A stretch of 56,358 nucleotides of DNA from a virus, in IMG/VR virus record IMGVR_UViG_3300036770_007473, positions 1 through 56,358 of that record; one strand, written 5' to 3'. The notes under the pieces are model-generated. The model was not told the origin of the DNA. It made no database searches and saw only the letters and a list, made by a program, of their open reading frames with translations. Both the position numbers and the translations under genes were made by a program. Positions 2,299-37,486 of this stretch are shown here, piece after piece. The stretch's first letter is position 1. Each line of letters starts with the position of its first letter.

Positions 2299-3324
2299 TT
2301 AGAACGTGTGGCTGATACCCACCGAAGTGGTTTTAGGATCAAGTCCCCCGGCTGCTGGAGCAGCCACTTGGCCGGACATGTACATCTTGGCATTGGCTTG
2401 ATTGTCCACGGCAGTATAAGCCGCATACAGAGTGGTGCGCTTGCTAAGGGCCTTGGTCACTCCCAGGGTGTAGCCCTTGCCTTCACCGGCAGTACTCTGG
2501 CTCGCATCCTTGGCCACAGCATATACTCCGTGCAGAGCCACGCCGTTGGCCAAAGGCATGCGCACAGATCCTTGGGTCACGGTGTTTTCAGCACCATTGG
2601 CGTTGTTGACATCGCCGCGACCGTGGGCAGCACCCACTGATACCACTCCAAAATCATAGGAAGCACCGTAGGTGGTAAAATCACGATCTCCTGCTGTGGA
2701 AGTAGCACCCATGGTAGCATAGCCGACGAATGCTCTCACGCGATCTTGGCGATAGGATACCATGATGCCTTTTTGATCACCTGCGGCATCCGTGGTGTCT
2801 CCAGCGGCATTGCCGGAGGCATAGGCGATGTCGGCCTGGAATCCAGAGACCGTGGGCGACAGATAACGGATCACGTTTTTCTGATCGACTCCCAGTTCAA
2901 CTGCGGTGCCATTGATAGCGCGGTTGCCAAAGTTAGCAAACTGGCTCACAAAAGATTCCACATTTTGTGCATCGGTCACGTCACCGCGCCCGAATCGCAC
3001 TTCACCTAGAGATTTTGAAGCGAATCCTACCCAAGCTTCGCGATTGAATACCTCGTTGGTAGACGTGGATCCCATGGTGCCGTTGGAAGCAGCTACCGCA
3101 CCTTCCAACATGAACTTGACTTCAACACCATTGCCCAGATCTTCAGATCCTCGAAATCCCAGGCGGCTCGTGCCCCATGCATTGTTTTGAGCCCGAGTGT
3201 ATGTCTGGGTGCCGTTATTGTGACTCTGGAATCCGGTATCGATCACTCCGTACACAGAAACATTTTGCGCATGCACGGTGTTGATCATACTGCCCAGCAA
3301 AATAGACATTGCTAGTTTTTTCAT
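2299..3324 (-). CDS. Gram-negative outer-membrane porin (host-type, phage-carried)
   Basis: A 341-residue general porin of the betaproteobacterial OmpC-like type (16-stranded trimeric barrels). The signal peptide MKKLAMSILLGSMINTVHA is followed by mature QNVSVYGVIDTGFQ. Family signatures include SRLGFRGSEDLGNGVEVKF near residue 60 and AWVGFASKSLGEVRFGRGD near residue 110. The C-terminus TSVGISHTF ends in Phe, as needed for barrel assembly by BAM. I chose ATG 3324 because GAAAGGAAA precedes it; the upstream TTG overlaps that site. It has its own promoter, operator-like palindrome and terminator, so it looks like an imported self-contained unit. Length is normal and no damage is seen. Possible roles: altering permeability, or replacing or masking a receptor during infection. 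Confidence 0.95.
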   Translation of the reverse strand: MKKLAMSILLGSMINTVHAQNVSVYGVIDTGFQSHNNGTQTYTRAQNNAWGTSRLGFRGSEDLGNGVEVKFMLEGAVAASNGTMGSTSTNEVFNREAWVGFASKSLGEVRFGRGDVTDAQNVESFVSQFANFGNRAINGTAVELGVDQKNVIRYLSPTVSGFQADIAYASGNAAGDTTDAAGDQKGIMVSYRQDRVRAFVGYATMGATSTAGDRDFTTYGASYDFGVVSVGAAHGRGDVNNANGAENTVTQGSVRMPLANGVALHGVYAVAKDASQSTAGEGKGYTLGVTKALSKRTTLYAAYTAVDNQANAKMYMSGQVAAPAAGGLDPKTTSVGISHTF

Positions 3325-3390
3325 GATTTTTCCTTTCAAGAGATGATTGTTTTTTGCTTGTGAACGATTATTTCACTTACGGAAGGCGTT

Positions 3391-3427
3391 CTGTAGTAAC
3401 ACTACAGTAAAGACATTGATATGTCAA
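3391..3427 (-). promoter_or_regulatory. Porin promoter with palindromic operator-like site
   Basis: A perfect TTGACA (3427-3422), 17-bp spacer and a weak -10 TAGTGT (3404-3399) on the minus strand. A perfect inverted repeat CTGTAGT-AAC-ACTACAG (3391-3407) covers the -10 region. That geometry is typical of a repressor or activator site. The mRNA start would be near 3392, leaving a leader of about 70 nt. The regulator is not identified in this window. Confidence 0.6.
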
Positions 3428-3506
3428 GCGTCTAGGATGATCCGACGTCGGTCCAATACCGGCGCTGCTGTACTAATTTAGCATGCGATCGATGGGCAGA
3501 ATTTTT

Positions 3507-4550
3507 TTAAAGTATAATGTTAGCCCGAGCTTGAGCCACAGAATACTGGGCATCCTGTAGGTTATTGGCCACGGTGGTATTTGGGTTCACATCAACCAAC
3601 TGAGTGTCTAACTGTATGCCCACTGCGTTCAGCACTGCTATGTTCCTGCCCTCTCGCATGCTGGCTATCACTGCTTGACCAGAAAGAGTGCTGGTATTGG
3701 CCACATTTTCAAAAAACTGTGCTGTGCCGCCTTCGGTGATGTCCAGGCCAAGATCGTGCAGTTGACTGGTCAGACCCAGCACTGTACTGACAGAGTTGGG
3801 GACCAGATTAGCATTGGCCGGATCATTGACCACGTTGCCGATGTCTAAGCCTGCAGCGATACAGTTGTCCACATTGAGCACCAACTGTTGGGCGGTGGCG
3901 TCGAATGCATCATTGGCCAGGGTGGTTTGATTGGCATAGGTTGATGCTATGGTGTTTATCACGGCGTTGGCCGATGCTATGAGATTGCCGAATGCCGCAT
4001 CGATCACATTGCCAAATGATAGATCAGGACCGTAGGTTCCCTGTCCCGGTAAGGGAGCAGGAATGGTGATGGTATAAGTGTCAGGCGGTCCTGTGGTCAC
4101 AGAAGTATAGGCATTGCCCAGGCAGTAACTCATCACGGTATACACACCATTGACAGAGGATGTGGCCGTGCCTCCATTGGCTGTAAGGCCGTCCAGGGCG
4201 CCGATGTTGGCCAGGTCCTGGATCACCTCTGTGGTCACAGAGATAGCAGTGGTAGCAGTGGCACCGGCAGCGATTCCGATCACATCATTGGTGGTCAAGG
4301 TATTACCCGGGCCGGTACCGGTGGCCAGCACATTGCCATAGAAATTGGTGACCGCAGGTGGCAAGGGTTCCGTGAGAGCATTGATCAGACCGAGATCTTT
4401 GTTGCTTTCCAACTGGCTGACTGCGGCACTGACTGCAGGAAGATCTGCGCGGAAGATATCTTTGACTTGGCGCAGGCTACGGCTCAAGGCCTGGTTGGCC
4501 AAGGCCTGATCCGGAGGTATGATTTTTTTCAGTGTGTTATACGTGGTCAT
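3507..4550 (-). CDS. Putative virion structural protein
   Basis: A 347-residue protein, rich in Ala, Asn, Thr and Val and poor in charge, with long helical segments (QVKDIFRADLPAVSAAVSQL) and repetitive AVINTIASTYANQTT-like stretches. No catalytic motif, signal peptide or convincing membrane helix. It overlaps the next upstream gene by ATGA and lies two genes downstream of the PAAR tail-tip gene, so I infer a baseplate or tail component. I cannot match it to a numbered T4 protein. Confidence 0.65.
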   Translation of the reverse strand: MTTYNTLKKIIPPDQALANQALSRSLRQVKDIFRADLPAVSAAVSQLESNKDLGLINALTEPLPPAVTNFYGNVLATGTGPGNTLTTNDVIGIAAGATATTAISVTTEVIQDLANIGALDGLTANGGTATSSVNGVYTVMSYCLGNAYTSVTTGPPDTYTITIPAPLPGQGTYGPDLSFGNVIDAAFGNLIASANAVINTIASTYANQTTLANDAFDATAQQLVLNVDNCIAAGLDIGNVVNDPANANLVPNSVSTVLGLTSQLHDLGLDITEGGTAQFFENVANTSTLSGQAVIASMREGRNIAVLNAVGIQLDTQLVDVNPNTTVANNLQDAQYSVAQARANIIL

Positions 4551-5620
4551 ACTGTGGCCTCTAGGGGAGGTAGTCCCAATCTCGCTCGCACGATGGGATC
4601 ATCGCCGGTATAGGCTGGAGCATTGGGATCTTGCAGGAACTTCTCGAGATTGGTGTTCACGCTGCTGGCCGATGCATAGACGCCACGCAGTCCGTCGGGC
4701 GTGGGCATGGTCAGGGTGGTGTAACTGTTAGGCAAGATCTTGGCCGGATTTAGTAGATCGGCCATGTTTCCTATCCCGGGTGTGCTCACTCCCAAGATAC
4801 TTTTTACTTGGGTGAGTTCACTTCCTGTGATCTTGGTCATACCATCATATAACAGTTTATTGGCCGAATCGGAGATGTTCGCGAATCCTCCAGATGCCAG
4901 GCTGGCTATGGCTGAACTGTCTACCCCGGCTGAACGCAGGGCGTTTTCTACCCCGGGTATCATGCCGCCCACCGAAGCCAACTGCTTAACTAGAGCCGAC
5001 GGATCTCCAAGGCTAGGCAGATTACCAAGATCGATGAGATTACCGAGGTCGCCAAGGTCGCCGCCCAAGGCACCAAAAGCCTCCGACACTTGGCTGAAAC
5101 TGCCGGTGATGAGGCTGTCCATGCCTCCGGTGATAGATCCAAAGGTAGAACTGATTGAGTCGATGTTGAGGCCACTGTTGATGAATTGGTTGGCCTGGCC
5201 TACGAATCCTTGCGCTGAATTGAATATCTGCCCAAACTGGCTGAGATCTCCAGAACCCATCAAGCCAGAAGCGGTGCTGGATATCAGGCCAGTGAAACCC
5301 CCGTCAAACACACCGCCCGAGGCTATGGGACCCAGGGCCGATGCGAAATCCCCCGGGATGGCATTGGTCAGGGCCGGAAATGCTCCTGCTCCCAGAGTTC
5401 TAAGACTGTCCAAGGTACCACTGCCTAGCACACCTGTGGCTGAAGTCACTATGTTGGAAAACTGTCCTGTGATAGGCAGGCTAGAAAATCCACCCAGGCT
5501 GCTGGTCAGTGCAGAACTCACACCCAGGCTGGAACCCAATCCTGACACAGCGCTGGCACCCGGCAACATGCCAGCACCGGCGATCAACATGGTTGGACTC
5601 AGTGGACCAGCACAACTCAT
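4547..5620 (-). CDS. Putative baseplate or tail structural protein, Gly/Ser/Leu-rich
   Basis: A 357-residue protein of low complexity, very rich in Gly, Ser, Leu and Ala, with recurring short blocks such as GDLGDLGNLIDLGNLPSLGD (about residues 190-210). The C-terminal part is more ordinary (PDGLRGVYASASSVNTNLEK). It starts immediately after the PAAR gene and overlaps the next gene by ATGA. The hydrophobic repeats could form a fibrous or sheath-contacting element. Function assigned only by position next to the tail tip; no T4 counterpart recognised. Confidence 0.65.
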   Translation of the reverse strand: MSCAGPLSPTMLIAGAGMLPGASAVSGLGSSLGVSSALTSSLGGFSSLPITGQFSNIVTSATGVLGSGTLDSLRTLGAGAFPALTNAIPGDFASALGPIASGGVFDGGFTGLISSTASGLMGSGDLSQFGQIFNSAQGFVGQANQFINSGLNIDSISSTFGSITGGMDSLITGSFSQVSEAFGALGGDLGDLGNLIDLGNLPSLGDPSALVKQLASVGGMIPGVENALRSAGVDSSAIASLASGGFANISDSANKLLYDGMTKITGSELTQVKSILGVSTPGIGNMADLLNPAKILPNSYTTLTMPTPDGLRGVYASASSVNTNLEKFLQDPNAPAYTGDDPIVRARLGLPPLEATV

Positions 5621-5911
5621 TTATAGTCCCACAATCACATCCGGACTGCCTTGGGCCACAGAGGTGCATGATTTCAGTTTACTGCCCACAGTGGCAGCAG
5701 GCAATCCATTTATGAAAACCGAACTGGAACCTGTGATGATAGGCACAGTGTGCCGAAAGCAGCGTCTGGCTGGCGCGCTGTGAGATGTGCTGAGATCGGT
5801 TACTCTGGCAGCCTTGCGTGAGTTGATATTGACATTATCACTGCCAGTGGCTATGGTGTAACTGCTGCAGTGGGGTACTCCGGCGTCACCTTGTCTTGCT
5901 GCTGCGGGCAT
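5621..5911 (-). CDS. PAAR-domain tail spike tip protein
   Basis: A 96-residue protein with the PAAR pattern: MPAAARQGDAGVPHCSSYTI at the start, ARVTDLSTSH in the middle, VFINGLPAATVGSKLKSC toward the end. PAAR proteins form the metal-bound cone that caps the central spike of contractile tails (T4 gp5.4 is the phage example). The His and Cys residues (HC near 14, H near 44, H near 54, C near 81) are suitable Zn or Fe ligands. The length is typical. Its two downstream neighbours are probable baseplate proteins. Confidence 0.85.
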   Translation of the reverse strand: MPAAARQGDAGVPHCSSYTIATGSDNVNINSRKAARVTDLSTSHSAPARRCFRHTVPIITGSSSVFINGLPAATVGSKLKSCTSVAQGSPDVIVGL

Positions 5912-6408: not shown

Positions 6409-6683
6409 AGGGTTCCTGAAGCGAGTGAATCTCTCAGTTCCATTTCGTTGAGTATATCTTCTGTGGTCATCCGGCTGAGACCGGTCCAGCCACCTTCCAC
6501 GAATATCTTACCATCCATGAAGATCTGGGGCACGGTGCGCAGACCCTGGCGCTGGATGAATTCGCGTGCTTCTGTGTCTTGTTCGATGTTGATTTCGCGA
6601 AAGTTGATATTTTTGCTCTGGAGATAGTCTTTGGCCATCACACAGAAAGGGCAGTTGTTTTTGGAATAAATGGTCAACATCAT
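6405..6683 (-). CDS. Glutaredoxin, electron donor for ribonucleotide reductase
   Basis: A 92-residue thioredoxin-fold protein. The active-site motif CPFC is at residues 11-14, the cis-proline TVPQIF at 50-55 and the glutathione-binding GGWTGL segment at about 64-69. It regenerates the C-terminal cysteine pair of NrdA using glutathione. The gene overlaps nrdB by ATGA, so grx, nrdB and nrdA are translated together. Phage glutaredoxins of this size next to nrd genes are common in T4-like phages. Confidence 0.92.
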   Translation of the reverse strand: MMLTIYSKNNCPFCVMAKDYLQSKNINFREINIEQDTEAREFIQRQGLRTVPQIFMDGKIFVEGGWTGLSRMTTEDILNEMELRDSLASGTL

Positions 6684-7807
6684 AATGATAGTCCTGAGAG
6701 AGTGTTGGAGTCTACGTCTTGTATTGTTCCGCCGATGATATAACTGCTCAATTCAACTTCTTGTGGTGCTACCTGTACATCGGCTCCGGCGATCCATTTC
6801 TGCGTCCAGGGCAAAGGATTGGTACCTCCTTTGAATCGACTAGGCAATCCAATGGCGGTCATCCGTTTGTTGGCGATCCACTCGATGTAGTCGCACAGCA
6901 GTTGTTCGTTGAGACCGATCATGCTACCATCGCGGAACAGATAGTTCGCCCAGCGTTTTTCTTGATCTACTGCAGATTCGAACATGTCTTTCATTTCCTG
7001 CTCGGTCTCTGCTCTGATACGCACGTAGTCGGGATCATCCTGTGGCAGCAGTTTCAGTAGTTGTTGGGTGCTGGCCAGGTGGACGTTCTCGTCACGGGCG
7101 ATAAACTTAATGATCTTAGCGTTACCCTCCATCTTCTTGAGCTCTGCGAACGCCCAGGAGCACGCGAAAGACACATAGAACCTGATGCCCTCGAGAACAT
7201 TGACCGAAGCCAAGGCCAGCCACAGTTTTTTCTTAAGTTCGTATTCGTCGACATTGACAGTCTCTCCATTCACGGTGTGATTTCCTGCTCCCAACAATTG
7301 ATACCATCCGCTGTATTGCACTAGATCATCATAGTACTTGGTGATGCCATGGGCGCAGTCGATGATTTCTTCCACATCCAACATTTCATCGAATATACGA
7401 TCTGGATCACTGTACACATTGCGTATGATGTGAGTGTAGCTGCGGCTATGGATGGTTTCGCTGAACGTCCAGGTGGCGATCCATGTCTCCAGTTCGGGCA
7501 ATGACACCACCGGCAAGAAACCCAGACTAGGACTTCGGCCCTGCACCGAATCCAGCAAGATCTGCCGTTTGAGATTGCTGGTAAAGATGTGCTGTTCATT
7601 GGCAGTGAGATCTTTGAAATCTTTGGCATCTCGCAGTACATCGACTTCTTCTGGTCTCCAGAAAAATCCCAACTGCTTGTCCGTGAGTTTGTCAAATTGG
7701 CGGTACTTCATGGTATCGTATCTCTGCATGCCCACGCCACCTTCGGGGTCCAGAAAGGCCAGACTCCGGGTGTGATCGCGATTTTTCTTTAGATTTAGTA
7801 CTGTCAT
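6680..7807 (-). CDS. nrdB: Class Ia ribonucleotide reductase, beta (radical) subunit
   Basis: A 375-residue NrdB. All six di-iron ligands are present at positions offset by two from the E. coli protein: Asp86, Glu117, His120, Glu206, Glu240, His243. The radical tyrosine is Tyr124 in SETIHSRSYTHII. Motif LLDSVQGRSP surrounds Asp86 and FIARDENVH the last ligands. It generates the tyrosyl radical used by NrdA to make dNTPs for phage replication. It overlaps the glutaredoxin gene downstream and an SGNH-hydrolase-like gene upstream (ATGA both), the latter inserted between nrdA and nrdB. Confidence 0.97.
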   Translation of the reverse strand: MTVLNLKKNRDHTRSLAFLDPEGGVGMQRYDTMKYRQFDKLTDKQLGFFWRPEEVDVLRDAKDFKDLTANEQHIFTSNLKRQILLDSVQGRSPSLGFLPVVSLPELETWIATWTFSETIHSRSYTHIIRNVYSDPDRIFDEMLDVEEIIDCAHGITKYYDDLVQYSGWYQLLGAGNHTVNGETVNVDEYELKKKLWLALASVNVLEGIRFYVSFACSWAFAELKKMEGNAKIIKFIARDENVHLASTQQLLKLLPQDDPDYVRIRAETEQEMKDMFESAVDQEKRWANYLFRDGSMIGLNEQLLCDYIEWIANKRMTAIGLPSRFKGGTNPLPWTQKWIAGADVQVAPQEVELSSYIIGGTIQDVDSNTLSGLSL

Positions 7808-8496
7808 GATTGTGTCTCTCTTGATAGATAGTTAATTATTTCTCTTGCAATGCATTTATGTCCGTATACATTGGGATGATTCTCACAGGGCGACAGATAT
7901 TGATGCTCCTGAGGATATCCTTGATCCACATCAAATCCCAATAGATCGCTGAGACGTGATTGCACTCCAGCTGGCCAGTGATCGACATCGATATCAAAAT
8001 GCCACGGCGCGGTCACTCGAGTCACAGAATTAATCATAATATAGCATTGACCCTGGACCTTCAATAGATTTTGGAGACTCCAGATGGATCTCTGGGCCGA
8101 ATACATCATGTAAGCATAGTTATCTACATCTCGATACCAACGGCTCCATTGATCAGAAATACGTATGTCCTGCCGGTGGTTTTTTTCGTCGATCCAGAAA
8201 TATCTCGTGAAGCTGGGCCACACGATCAAGATCAATTCGTCTTGACAGGGCGATTTCAGATACTGGGAAATGCGCTGTACCAGGTGCTCGGCACTGATAC
8301 CCGGCTCTCCGAAGTTTTTTTCCTGCCATCCGAAGTGTTGAGCCACCAAGGCAGTGAATCGATTTCGCTCGCGGAACGAATCCTGATCCATGGCTTTGTA
8401 CCCCGCGCCCAGACTTTTTTCCAGTTCCGATCCCCAACACCAACTATCACCGAAACAGGCGATGGACTGGATGGTATCAGATAGTGCAACTGTCAC
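7804..8496 (-). CDS. SGNH/GDSL-hydrolase-like protein between nrdA and nrdB
   Basis: A 230-residue protein with SGNH blocks in order: block I FGDSWCWGSEL at about residues 15-25 (nucleophile Ser in GDS), block II NFGEPGISAEHLV near 61, a block III-like IVWPSFTRYFW near 90, and a C-terminal HPNVYGHKCIAREI with the catalytic His. Such enzymes remove or transfer acyl groups on glycans or lipids; here the substrate is unknown. It overlaps nrdA by 20 bases and nrdB by ATGA. Nucleotide metabolism gives no obvious reason for its position. Two distant relatives lie at 33560-34237 and 34234-34839. Confidence 0.75.
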   Translation of the reverse strand: MTVALSDTIQSIACFGDSWCWGSELEKSLGAGYKAMDQDSFRERNRFTALVAQHFGWQEKNFGEPGISAEHLVQRISQYLKSPCQDELILIVWPSFTRYFWIDEKNHRQDIRISDQWSRWYRDVDNYAYMMYSAQRSIWSLQNLLKVQGQCYIMINSVTRVTAPWHFDIDVDHWPAGVQSRLSDLLGFDVDQGYPQEHQYLSPCENHPNVYGHKCIAREIINYLSRETQS

Positions 8497-10789
8497 AAGA
8501 TTCGTCTGCCCGTAGTTCCGTGTTTGCTGGCTCTGTTGACGCAGATCGTTGATTGATCTGATCTAGATCAATCTCACCGGAGCCGTCGTAGGTATTGAAG
8601 TAGTAGAGTTGTTTGCCGCCATATTTGTAGAACATGATCATGTGCTTCATCATCTCGCTCATAGGGATCTTCTCATCTTCGTAGTGTTGAGGATTGTAAG
8701 AAGTGTTCACCGAGATCCCTTGGTCGATGTACTTCTGGAGGATGGCCATGATCTTGAGATAGCCTTCGGGACTGCGCTGATCCCACAACAGTTCATATCG
8801 ATTTTTAAGGCGTCGATACTCTGGAACCACTTGCTTGAGCACACCGTCTTTTGATTGCTTGACCGAAACATAACTGCGAGGGGGTTCTACTCCATTGGTA
8901 CTGTTTGATATCTGTGCAGAGGTTTCAGCGGGCATCAGGGCCATCAGGGTGCTGTTGCGTATGCCATGCTGGCGTAAACGACCGCGGAGATCCGCCCAGT
9001 CTACTAGATCTTGATGCGGTACCAATTCATCCACATCCTTTTTGTACGTGTCCACTGGCAAGATGCCATCATGGTAACGTGTTTCGTTGCTCTTGGGACA
9101 TGCACCAAATTCCTGAGCGAGATCCACCGATGCTTTGATCAGATAGTAACTCCAGTGCTGGGCCCAACGATCTACCACGGGCAGGGCGGCTGGATCAGAA
9201 TAACAAAGATCGTTCTTGGCCAACCAGTAGGCAAGATTGATGATGCCCACGCCCAAGGGTCGACGATTTTCTGTGGCCATCTGTGCGGCCAAGATAGGAT
9301 AGTTCTGATAACTCAACAAGGCATCCAGCCCGCGCACTGCCAAGGTGCAGGCCTTTTCCATGTCTTCGGGATCTCGGAACACTCCCCAGTTTATGGCGCT
9401 GAGTGTGCAGAGAGCGATTTCTCCGTTGGAATCATTGACATCATTGAGCGGCTGGGTAGGGAGATCGATTTCGCAACAGAGATTGCTCTGGCGAATGGGT
9501 GCTATCTCGGGCTTGAAACTGCCATGGCTGTTGGCATGATCCACGTTCATGAGATACACACGACCAGTGTCCTTGCGTTCTTGCATGAACATAGAAAACA
9601 GTTCCAGAGCCTTGATGGTTTTTTTACGCAGTTTGGTATTGCGTTCTGCTCTCTCATACAGTTCACGGAAGCGATCTACATCGGTATAAAAAGCATCCCA
9701 CATTTCGGGCACGTCGTGAGGAGAAAACAGAGTGATATCACCATTGATCAAGAGTCGCTCGTACATGACTTTGTTGAATTGTACACCATAGTCCATATGG
9801 CGCACTCGATTATCGTCTGTGCCTTTGTTGTTTTTAAGCACCAACAAGTCTTCTACTTCAAGATGCCACAGGGGATAATAAAGTGTGGCGGCACCATTGC
9901 GCACGCCTCCTTGGCTGCACGAGCGGGTAGCGGCCTGGAAAAGTTTGTAGAAAGGTATGACGCCTGTGTGATATGCATCTCCGTTACGGATAGGTGAGCC
10001 TATGGCGCGGATACGGCTCGCGCCGATGCCTATGCCAGCCTTTTGACTCACATACTTCACTATAGAACTGGCCGTGGCGTTGATCGAATCGAGGCTGTCT
10101 CCGGTCTCGATCAGCACGCAACTGCTGAACTGCCGCATGGGTGTGCGCACCCCGGCCATCACAGGAGTGGGCAGACTGACCTGGTGAGTGGAGATAGCAT
10201 CATAGTAGTCCTTGACCCACATCATGCGTGTTTCTCGGGGATAGCGAGAAAACAGAGTGGCCGCTATCAGCACATAGGCCATTTGCGGGGTTTCAAAGAT
10301 TTCTTTGGTCACACGATTCTGCACCAGATACTTGCCTCGGAATTGCTCCATGGCTGCATAGGTCAGGTCTTCGTCGCGATCGTGCTTGACGAAACTGTTG
10401 ATACGATTCCAATCATCCGCATCATAGACTTCCAGCAGTTCTGGATCATAAAATCCTGCGGCCACATTGCGTTTTACTAGATCTAACAAGTGGCAGGGAT
10501 CAAACTGTCCATAGACCTGCTTTCGCAGGTGATAGCAGATTAGTCTTCCAGCCACGTATTGATAGTTGGGAGTTTCTTCCGAGATCAAGTCGGCTGCACT
10601 CTTGATCAGGGTTTCCTGTATGTCTGCGGTCTTGATTCCATTGTAAAACTGCAGGTGGCTTTTGATTTCTACTTCGCTGGCGCTGACGCCGGTGATTCCT
10701 TCGGTGGCCCAAAAAACCACGCGATGTAGTTTTTCGAGATCCAGTGTTTCTTTGTTACCGTCTCTTTTTTGTACTTGTATCTGTGTCAT
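8477..10789 (-). CDS. nrdA: Class Ia ribonucleotide reductase, alpha (catalytic) subunit
   Basis: A 770-residue NrdA, close to the 761 of E. coli. An ATP-cone allosteric domain occupies residues 1-90. Catalytic residues: Cys224 (FSSC), the thiyl radical Cys438 with Asn436 and Glu440 (SNLCCEI), and Cys461 (EIALCTLS). The tyrosines of the radical path lie in the C-terminal KQLYYFNTYD. The tail ends CDSC-TI, the redox shuttle Cys765/Cys768 reduced by glutaredoxin. It reduces ribonucleoside diphosphates for phage DNA synthesis. It is followed by the SGNH gene, nrdB and grx. No intein or frameshift. Confidence 0.97.
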   Translation of the reverse strand: MTQIQVQKRDGNKETLDLEKLHRVVFWATEGITGVSASEVEIKSHLQFYNGIKTADIQETLIKSAADLISEETPNYQYVAGRLICYHLRKQVYGQFDPCHLLDLVKRNVAAGFYDPELLEVYDADDWNRINSFVKHDRDEDLTYAAMEQFRGKYLVQNRVTKEIFETPQMAYVLIAATLFSRYPRETRMMWVKDYYDAISTHQVSLPTPVMAGVRTPMRQFSSCVLIETGDSLDSINATASSIVKYVSQKAGIGIGASRIRAIGSPIRNGDAYHTGVIPFYKLFQAATRSCSQGGVRNGAATLYYPLWHLEVEDLLVLKNNKGTDDNRVRHMDYGVQFNKVMYERLLINGDITLFSPHDVPEMWDAFYTDVDRFRELYERAERNTKLRKKTIKALELFSMFMQERKDTGRVYLMNVDHANSHGSFKPEIAPIRQSNLCCEIDLPTQPLNDVNDSNGEIALCTLSAINWGVFRDPEDMEKACTLAVRGLDALLSYQNYPILAAQMATENRRPLGVGIINLAYWLAKNDLCYSDPAALPVVDRWAQHWSYYLIKASVDLAQEFGACPKSNETRYHDGILPVDTYKKDVDELVPHQDLVDWADLRGRLRQHGIRNSTLMALMPAETSAQISNSTNGVEPPRSYVSVKQSKDGVLKQVVPEYRRLKNRYELLWDQRSPEGYLKIMAILQKYIDQGISVNTSYNPQHYEDEKIPMSEMMKHMIMFYKYGGKQLYYFNTYDGSGEIDLDQINQRSASTEPANTELRADESCDSCTI

Positions 10790-37457: not shown

Positions 37458-37486
37458 ATTATATGAAATTGGCAATTTTTGGTCAA
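37458..37486 (-). promoter_or_regulatory. Sigma70-type early promoter P4
   Basis: Minus-strand TTGACC (37486-37481), 17-bp spacer, TATAAT (37463-37458), followed by AGTTAGACAATA, resembling P1-P3. AGGAG precedes ATG 37427 after a leader of about 24 nt. Confidence 0.85.

Follow-up and report, generated by a model that had tools for sequence, protein, structure and literature searches.

A covarying RNA leader upstream of an Omp32-like porin gene in a T4-like phage, and a possible late uptake regulon

The DNA analysed here (the window) is a linear IMG/VR virus record of 56,358 bases, and it carries an Omp32-like porin gene that, on strong comparative evidence, is preceded by a structured RNA leader. 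The leader is apparently an undescribed RNA. Because the same leader also stands before nutrient-uptake genes of other phages, we suggest that these viruses rewire the uptake of the dying host. A late uptake regulon, in which the porin helps organic anions into the infected cell, is our main reading, with a probability of roughly 0.55. Its fuller version, which we give a little under even odds, describes a late uptake regulon of jumbo T4-like phages of freshwater Burkholderiales, marked by this leader, switched by a factor or ligand, and serving import across both membranes through a porin, TctC or DctP, and TctA or an ABC permease.

The porin gene was found on the minus strand at 2299-3324 (coding sequence 2302-3324, stop codon to 2299), where the ORF listing and translation gave an intact frame encoding a precursor of 341 aa. 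The longest listed frame (2299-3339) begins with TTG, and the ATG at 3324 is the likely start. The first residues, MKKLAMSILLGSMINTVHA (3268-3324, minus strand), were read by eye as a putative signal peptide with cleavage before Q20; the predicted mature protein begins with QN, a start that agrees with the Omp32 alignment, and the C-terminal residue is Phe. Porin_4 was the only Pfam family in the protein (E = 8e-38, 131 bits against a cut-off of 27), and a PHROGs search returned nothing. The AlphaFold2 model showed a 16-strand barrel (pLDDT 82.9, pTM 0.80) with an inward loop 3 that is itself of low confidence. Downstream of the gene, the terminator scan placed an intrinsic terminator at 2281-2260 on the minus strand. 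The complete host-type porin and the terminator proposed in the initial annotation were thus recovered, as was, by eye, its signal peptide.

A phage-only clade (clade A) contained 16 members with 47-62% identity to the window porin, while the nearest cellular porins, at 39-42%, were of the Polynucleobacter type. Polynucleobacter is a genus of freshwater Burkholderiaceae with small genomes. Within it, 5 of 186 genomes matched at E <= 1e-28 (best E = 7e-46, 39% identity), and two other Polynucleobacter genomes had full-length porins with 42% identity. In the order of Polynucleobacter meluiroseus, 48 of 399 genomes matched at E <= 1e-20, and a pattern scan of 84,980 species genomes gave no best match above 35% among the matches listed. 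In the trees, 13 clade A rows formed one side of a branch (support 97-98, starred). Porins of the Polynucleobacter type were its neighbours, with unstarred support values of 92 and 94. L131, L135 and L084, being possible host or unverified contigs, were left out of the trees, and the second tree also omitted L101 and L133. The clade is thus phage-only, as in one outcome that the initial annotation had weighed, but it does have host relatives. A recent transfer from the host was rejected, given the lower identity to cellular porins than inside the phage clade, and a single origin of all phage porins was also rejected (p-AU 0.026, with groups named after the first tree). The phage porin is under purifying selection, with a dN/dS ratio of about 0.06-0.15 in unsaturated pairs (dS < 1). 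The Omp32-like porin would be an old acquisition from a Polynucleobacter-type host that has since been retained as a phage gene.

Sequence comparison with solved structures identified Omp32 of Delftia acidovorans as the closest relative (E = 2e-20). The top Foldseek match of the model was 2fgq, the Omp32-malate complex, and comparison with 1e54 gave a Z score of 32.8 and 2.3 Å over 309 residues at 28% identity. The pore of Omp32 has three Arg residues, which we take to be R38, R75 and R133. R54 and R95 of the window porin align to the first two, whereas clade A has Asp at the R133 position in 16/16 members (Asp147 in the window). Since the third aligned pore Arg is Asp, the window porin is best described as Omp32-like rather than as Omp32 in the strict sense. 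Asp was also found at this position in 7/10 Polynucleobacter-type porins, and Arg in 39/42 other Burkholderiales porins, a set that includes two plasmid rows, one of these being from Rhodocyclales, and whose groups were defined by us. The residue is an independent character agreeing with the kinship of clade A and the Polynucleobacter-type porins. The Asp may weaken anion selectivity; a general basic cluster has been described for the Omp32 pore (PMC3723809).

The window also encodes NrdA/B, a UvsX-like recombinase, a gp32-type SSB, a DnaB-like helicase and a primase, in line with the earlier assignment to a T4-like phage, and it is a probable fragment of a jumbo phage of this kind. Family searches and locus comparison identified nrdB, g7804 and nrdA (6680-10789, minus strand) as the anchor of a syntenic block with the order nrdA-nrdB-grx-g6103-PAAR-g4547-g3507-porin. 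The gene g3507 (3507-4550, minus strand) was identified by locus comparison as the conserved neighbour upstream of syntenic phage porins. The nrdB scan yielded 80 loci and the porin-alignment scan 51. The order from nrdA to g3507 was common to many nrdB loci, and in some of them a porin followed. A porin occupied the same place in nine phage loci (L085, L086, L089, L090, L091, L093, L094, L101 and L133), those of L101 and L133 being divergent; L091 belongs to the contig of L016, and L133 to that of L003. The nrdB relatives L008, L040, L011, L018, L019 and L022 had no porin at that place. Porin_4 was found once each in 31 of 43 virus records, 28 of which had been chosen for a known porin. Among the 15 chosen by nrdB it occurred in three, G001, G002 and G003, the three longer than 300 kb, and the search of G009 (261 kb) found none. 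The PAAR protein and the pair of low-complexity proteins, each about 350 aa long, that follow it (3507-5911, minus strand) are conserved behind nrdB and are perhaps a tail-tip module. AhpC/TSA-like peroxiredoxins were observed in or beside the porin slot in L022 (14150-14719), L119 (5761-6300) and L127 (6871-7401), the one in L119 being called by Pfam and the others by eye.

A betaproteobacterial host is supported by the relatives, since 8/14 relative records, including all 7 longer than 200 kb, carry a betaproteobacterial permuted tmRNA. The host is probably a freshwater member of the Burkholderiales, perhaps Polynucleobacter. Permuted tmRNAs (RF01850) were observed in loci L087, L088, L099, L119, L127, L311, L128 and L300 and in records G001, G002, G003, G009, G026, G030 and G039, and in several phage loci the tmRNA lies just upstream of the porin. 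In L311 (4597-7811; G632), a phage that has the window's leader, 28 tRNA genes are clustered beside the tmRNA.

Upstream of the porin gene, the initial annotation had described a TTGACA promoter and an operator, the exact palindrome CTGTAGT-AAC-ACTACAG, over its -10. The palindrome is present at 3391-3407 and TTGACA at 3427-3422 (minus strand). By number such a palindrome is no more than expected by chance, with about 0.2 expected in the 182-nt gap upstream of the porin; the window has four exact 7-3-7 palindromes, and 66 with spacers of 0-8. The palindrome is significant because homologous phage copies keep its arms paired by compensatory changes. An exact 22-mer matched one other contig, L300 (157 kb), where about 100 nt before an ABC importer operon were 88% identical to the window region. 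A relaxed search found copies in which both arms were altered together, and a degenerate pattern of the leader core matched 37 IMG/VR contigs. The 40 leader rows were reduced to 22 distinct copies by leaving out near-identical rows and those lying too close to a contig end, and 21 of these entered the structure alignment, without L340, a tandem copy.

Alignment and the covariance model placed the leader, of about 113-115 nt, at 3356-3468 on the minus strand, from GCAGCGCC, its likely 5' end, to ...CAAGC. The aligned copies share an invariant TAAAT (21/21), a few nucleotides, GCA(A/G)CGCC, the hairpins, and a CCGTAAG-hairpin-AAGC end. The start codon follows the leader core by about 50-60 nt in most copies, and 36 of the 37 contigs have a sense-strand ORF within about 330 nt downstream, the remaining copy lying at a contig end. 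The structure comprises 25 pairs in six helices. The TTGACA of the annotation lies in helix 4 (GACAT-N4-ATGTC, 3412-3425), its palindrome is helix 5 (CTGTAGT-GTT-ACTACAG, 3391-3407), and helix 6 is GTGAA-ATAATCG-TTCAC (3360-3376), all on the minus strand. Pairing was seen in 98.3% of 521 cells, compared with 90.6% in shuffles and 22-49% in slid controls. Eight pairs covaried (5.4 in shuffles), 40 cells were changed on both sides (10.8 in shuffles), and the covariation score of 0.242 (0.098 in shuffles) was reached by 0/500 shuffles, while the measure of further pair types was no higher than in shuffles (16 and 16.0). Folding z-scores of single leaders were modest (-1.1 to -1.5), so the case for the leader rests on covariation. 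Helix 4 showed no variation among the 21 copies, its letters having been fixed by the search pattern; in divergent copies found by the covariance model it was re-paired with other letters, and those lacking TTGACA kept its arms paired.

The covariance model gave 20 matches in 81 sources, several of which had been chosen for holding the pattern. Applied to 79 porin loci of cellular genomes or plasmids, it had no match. In Rfam 15, the window had no match at the gathering score and the L337 copy none at E <= 5. The leader stood directly before the porin in only 4 of the 36 phage porin loci run through the model. The syntenic relatives L003, L016, L085, L086 and L101 had no leader by this model, and L085, L086, L089-L094 and L101 had a shorter late leader upstream of the porin. 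In L128 (5777-5989), the leader core is tandem-duplicated before a porin.

Just upstream of the leader, the motif and the leader alignment identified a late promoter-like octamer, CTAAATTA, at 3474-3481 (minus strand), and this position makes it likely that a late mRNA begins with the leader. The late promoter of T4 is TATAAATA, which the octamer resembles; it differs from the T4 promoter in being followed by a conserved structured leader common to a set of genes. Within 110 nt upstream of 399 ORFs from 20 sources, late-like octamers were found 22 times on the same strand and twice on the opposite strand. A second candidate for the window's late promoter, CGTAAGTGA at about 3380-3372, was rejected as the conserved CCGTAAG plus helix 6 of the leader. 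The porin would thus be transcribed late from a TAAATA-type promoter, and its mRNA would begin with this conserved leader, about 115 nt long and folded into several hairpins, with the palindrome as one of the helices.

A reading at the DNA level takes TTGACA-17-TATTAT (or -18-TATAAT) for a promoter of the sigma-70 type, with the palindrome across the -10 serving as an operator that a repressor or activator of the phage would bind, and the element may act at both levels. In most aligned copies the centre of helix 5 does read TATTATT or TTATAAT, suitably spaced from TTGACA, and palindromic arms would suit a dimeric DNA binder. The window copy itself has only TAGTGT, 17 nt after TTGACA, and falls below the threshold of the consensus promoter scan, which near the porin found instead TTGACC-18-TATAAT at 1273, 1989 and 2252 (minus strand). 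The copies in L100 and L112 and the second copies in L326 and L132 lack the -35 and still have paired arms (by eye), the arm letters vary freely while pairing persists, the element lies downstream of the late promoter, and a promoter would have no use for helices 1, 2, 3 and 6. We therefore consider the DNA-level reading unlikely, and the operator reading of the palindrome is probably wrong: the hexamer and the non-random palindrome stand as observed, the latter as a helix of the RNA leader. A host regulator, which the initial annotation had offered as a reader of the operator, is also unlikely, because the syntenic porin relatives do not conserve the palindrome and it was recovered from 0/186 genomes of Polynucleobacter, the possible host genus. 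It was absent from 298 other loci too. Its conservation is a matter of the leader family and not of the syntenic phages. A LexA-like CTGT...ACAG site was rejected, the spacing being 9 rather than the 8 of LexA-type sites. Early-type TTGACC-N17/18-TATAAT repeats were observed at 1244-1273, 1960-1989, 2223-2252 and 37458-37486 (minus strand), and three of them precede small genes near the porin.

Twelve of the 22 distinct leader copies precede envelope transport genes: TctC in eight (L314, L315, L316, L322, L325, L330, L336 and L337), TctA in L346, porins in the window and L340, and the ABC operon in L300. TauD-type oxygenases follow four copies (L318, L328, L329 and L317, the last a weak match below the cut-off) and a Trp_halogenase follows one (L321); for the genes behind L313, L320, L326, L333 and L348, the family search found no family. 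Since five of the 22 downstream genes are without a family and five encode an oxygenase or halogenase, uptake does not describe the whole regulon. When the genes on all 37 contigs were grouped by their first 60 residues, the counts were 16 TctC, 7 TauD, 2 porin, 1 TctA, 1 ABC, 1 halogenase and 8 other, with 1 contig end. Further leader copies were found before the porins of L115, L100, L112 and L338, and in L326 and L132 the leader precedes DctP genes as well. In the L300 operon, a secreted protein takes the binding-protein place before an ATPase (PF00005) and a permease (PF00528); it had no match by Pfam, NCBIfam or PDB, and its place and signal peptide suggest a binding protein. The halogenase-like gene lies at 384-2021 of L321 and TauD-like genes at 414-1454 of L318 and 183-1238 of L328. 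By eye, the DctP-family proteins behind the leader in L326 (9392-10345) and L132 (4856-5806) have no obvious signal peptide.

A PF03401 search found TctC in 12 of 21 virus records and none in the other 9, and TctA occurred in 4 of 21. In 5 of the 12 records with both a porin and a Tct gene, the porin lay within 1.2 kb of a Tct gene, compared with 0.9 at random (p = 0.0009, the records being non-independent). About 60 nt separate porin and TctA in G003, and a third protein of the operon (L252, 2827-3720) matched the profile of the phage TctC set weakly (model pLDDT 37.9). No Tct gene adjoins the window porin, TctB was not found in the window, and G001, the largest syntenic relative, has no Tct gene within 170 kb of its porin. 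The missing Tct neighbour in the window, the syntenic relatives without the leader, the oxygenase and halogenase genes behind it, and the possible effect of Asp147 speak against the uptake reading. A PBP-family, phosphate-type binding protein, PstS-like by eye, was observed beside TctA in a 316-kb phage (L250, 3257-4252, minus strand).

The initial annotation had also offered receptor switching or superinfection exclusion, with the phage porin displacing or masking the host receptor. The Lc porin of lambdoid phage PA-2 reportedly acts in this way, and homology of the window porin to host surface porins would fit such a role by analogy. Among pairs with 45-75% strand identity, the loop-to-strand identity ratio was 0.81 for the 77 pairs from clade A, compared with 0.57 for 196 pairs of host porins. 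The phage loops are nearly as conserved as the strands and so do not resemble a surface under receptor or immune pressure. This, the late-type promoter, and the use of the leader for transport genes of the periplasm and the inner membrane make receptor replacement or exclusion improbable, and we found no positive evidence for it. Still less probable is a general envelope effect, in which the porin would help with lysis, release or osmotic balance and have no specific solute; the late-type promoter and the more than one origin of porins in the same kinds of phage agree with it, but the leader is common to solute-binding proteins, which also lie at short distances. A permeability change during infection is the best supported of the options in the annotation.

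In the late uptake regulon proposed here, phages of this kind place one leader before TctC, DctP, TctA, an ABC importer, TauD-type oxygenases and other porins. The leader would coordinate late expression of a solute-uptake and metabolism regulon by acting on translation or stability, with a ligand or an RNA-binding protein of the phage or the host as the mediator, and the porin would widen the outer membrane for small organic anions feeding virus production. With one late leader ahead of them all, the porin, binding proteins and permeases would amount to a trans-envelope uptake set. Viral uptake genes are usually reported singly, as auxiliary metabolic genes. If the proposal is true, a shared covarying leader ties them into one regulon, whose new members could be found with the covariance model, and a phage can supply components of an import route in the outer membrane, the periplasm and the inner membrane. 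The benefit of these genes to the phage would then become a question about one RNA, and an RNA family without an Rfam match would be added.

One of 50,697 INPHARED phage records had a weak porin match, megablast of INPHARED gave no useful lead, and the phrase 'phage-encoded porin' retrieved no report. Lambdoid Lc/NmpC porins are carried by temperate enterobacterial phages; they are phage-borne like the window porin and differ from it in porin family and context. The window porin resembles Omp32 of Delftia (Comamonas) acidovorans (PDB 1e54/2fgq/2fgr) as a 16-strand porin and differs from it in being phage-borne with conserved surface loops. OmpC-labelled porins of uncultured Caudovirales (BFVD A0A6J5L4P1 and A0A6J5LP82) have the same fold (TM 0.83 and 0.64, respectively) at only 20-24% identity, and their entries describe no function. 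The viral porin OmpL of oxygen-depleted ocean viruses is also phage-borne and lies beside an uptake gene (glnK-amtB); unlike the window porin, it was reported as taken from Bacteroidetes, and the accessible part of that report mentions no leader RNA (PMC8115048). The tripartite tricarboxylate transporter gene tctA has likewise been reported on viral contigs, by protein-domain match only and with its role called unknown, and neither a porin nor a shared leader is mentioned in the accessible parts of those reports (PMC4164917, PMC6359870). Viral porins and viral tctA are thus already on record, and the new element suggested by these comparisons would be the regulon that the leader links.
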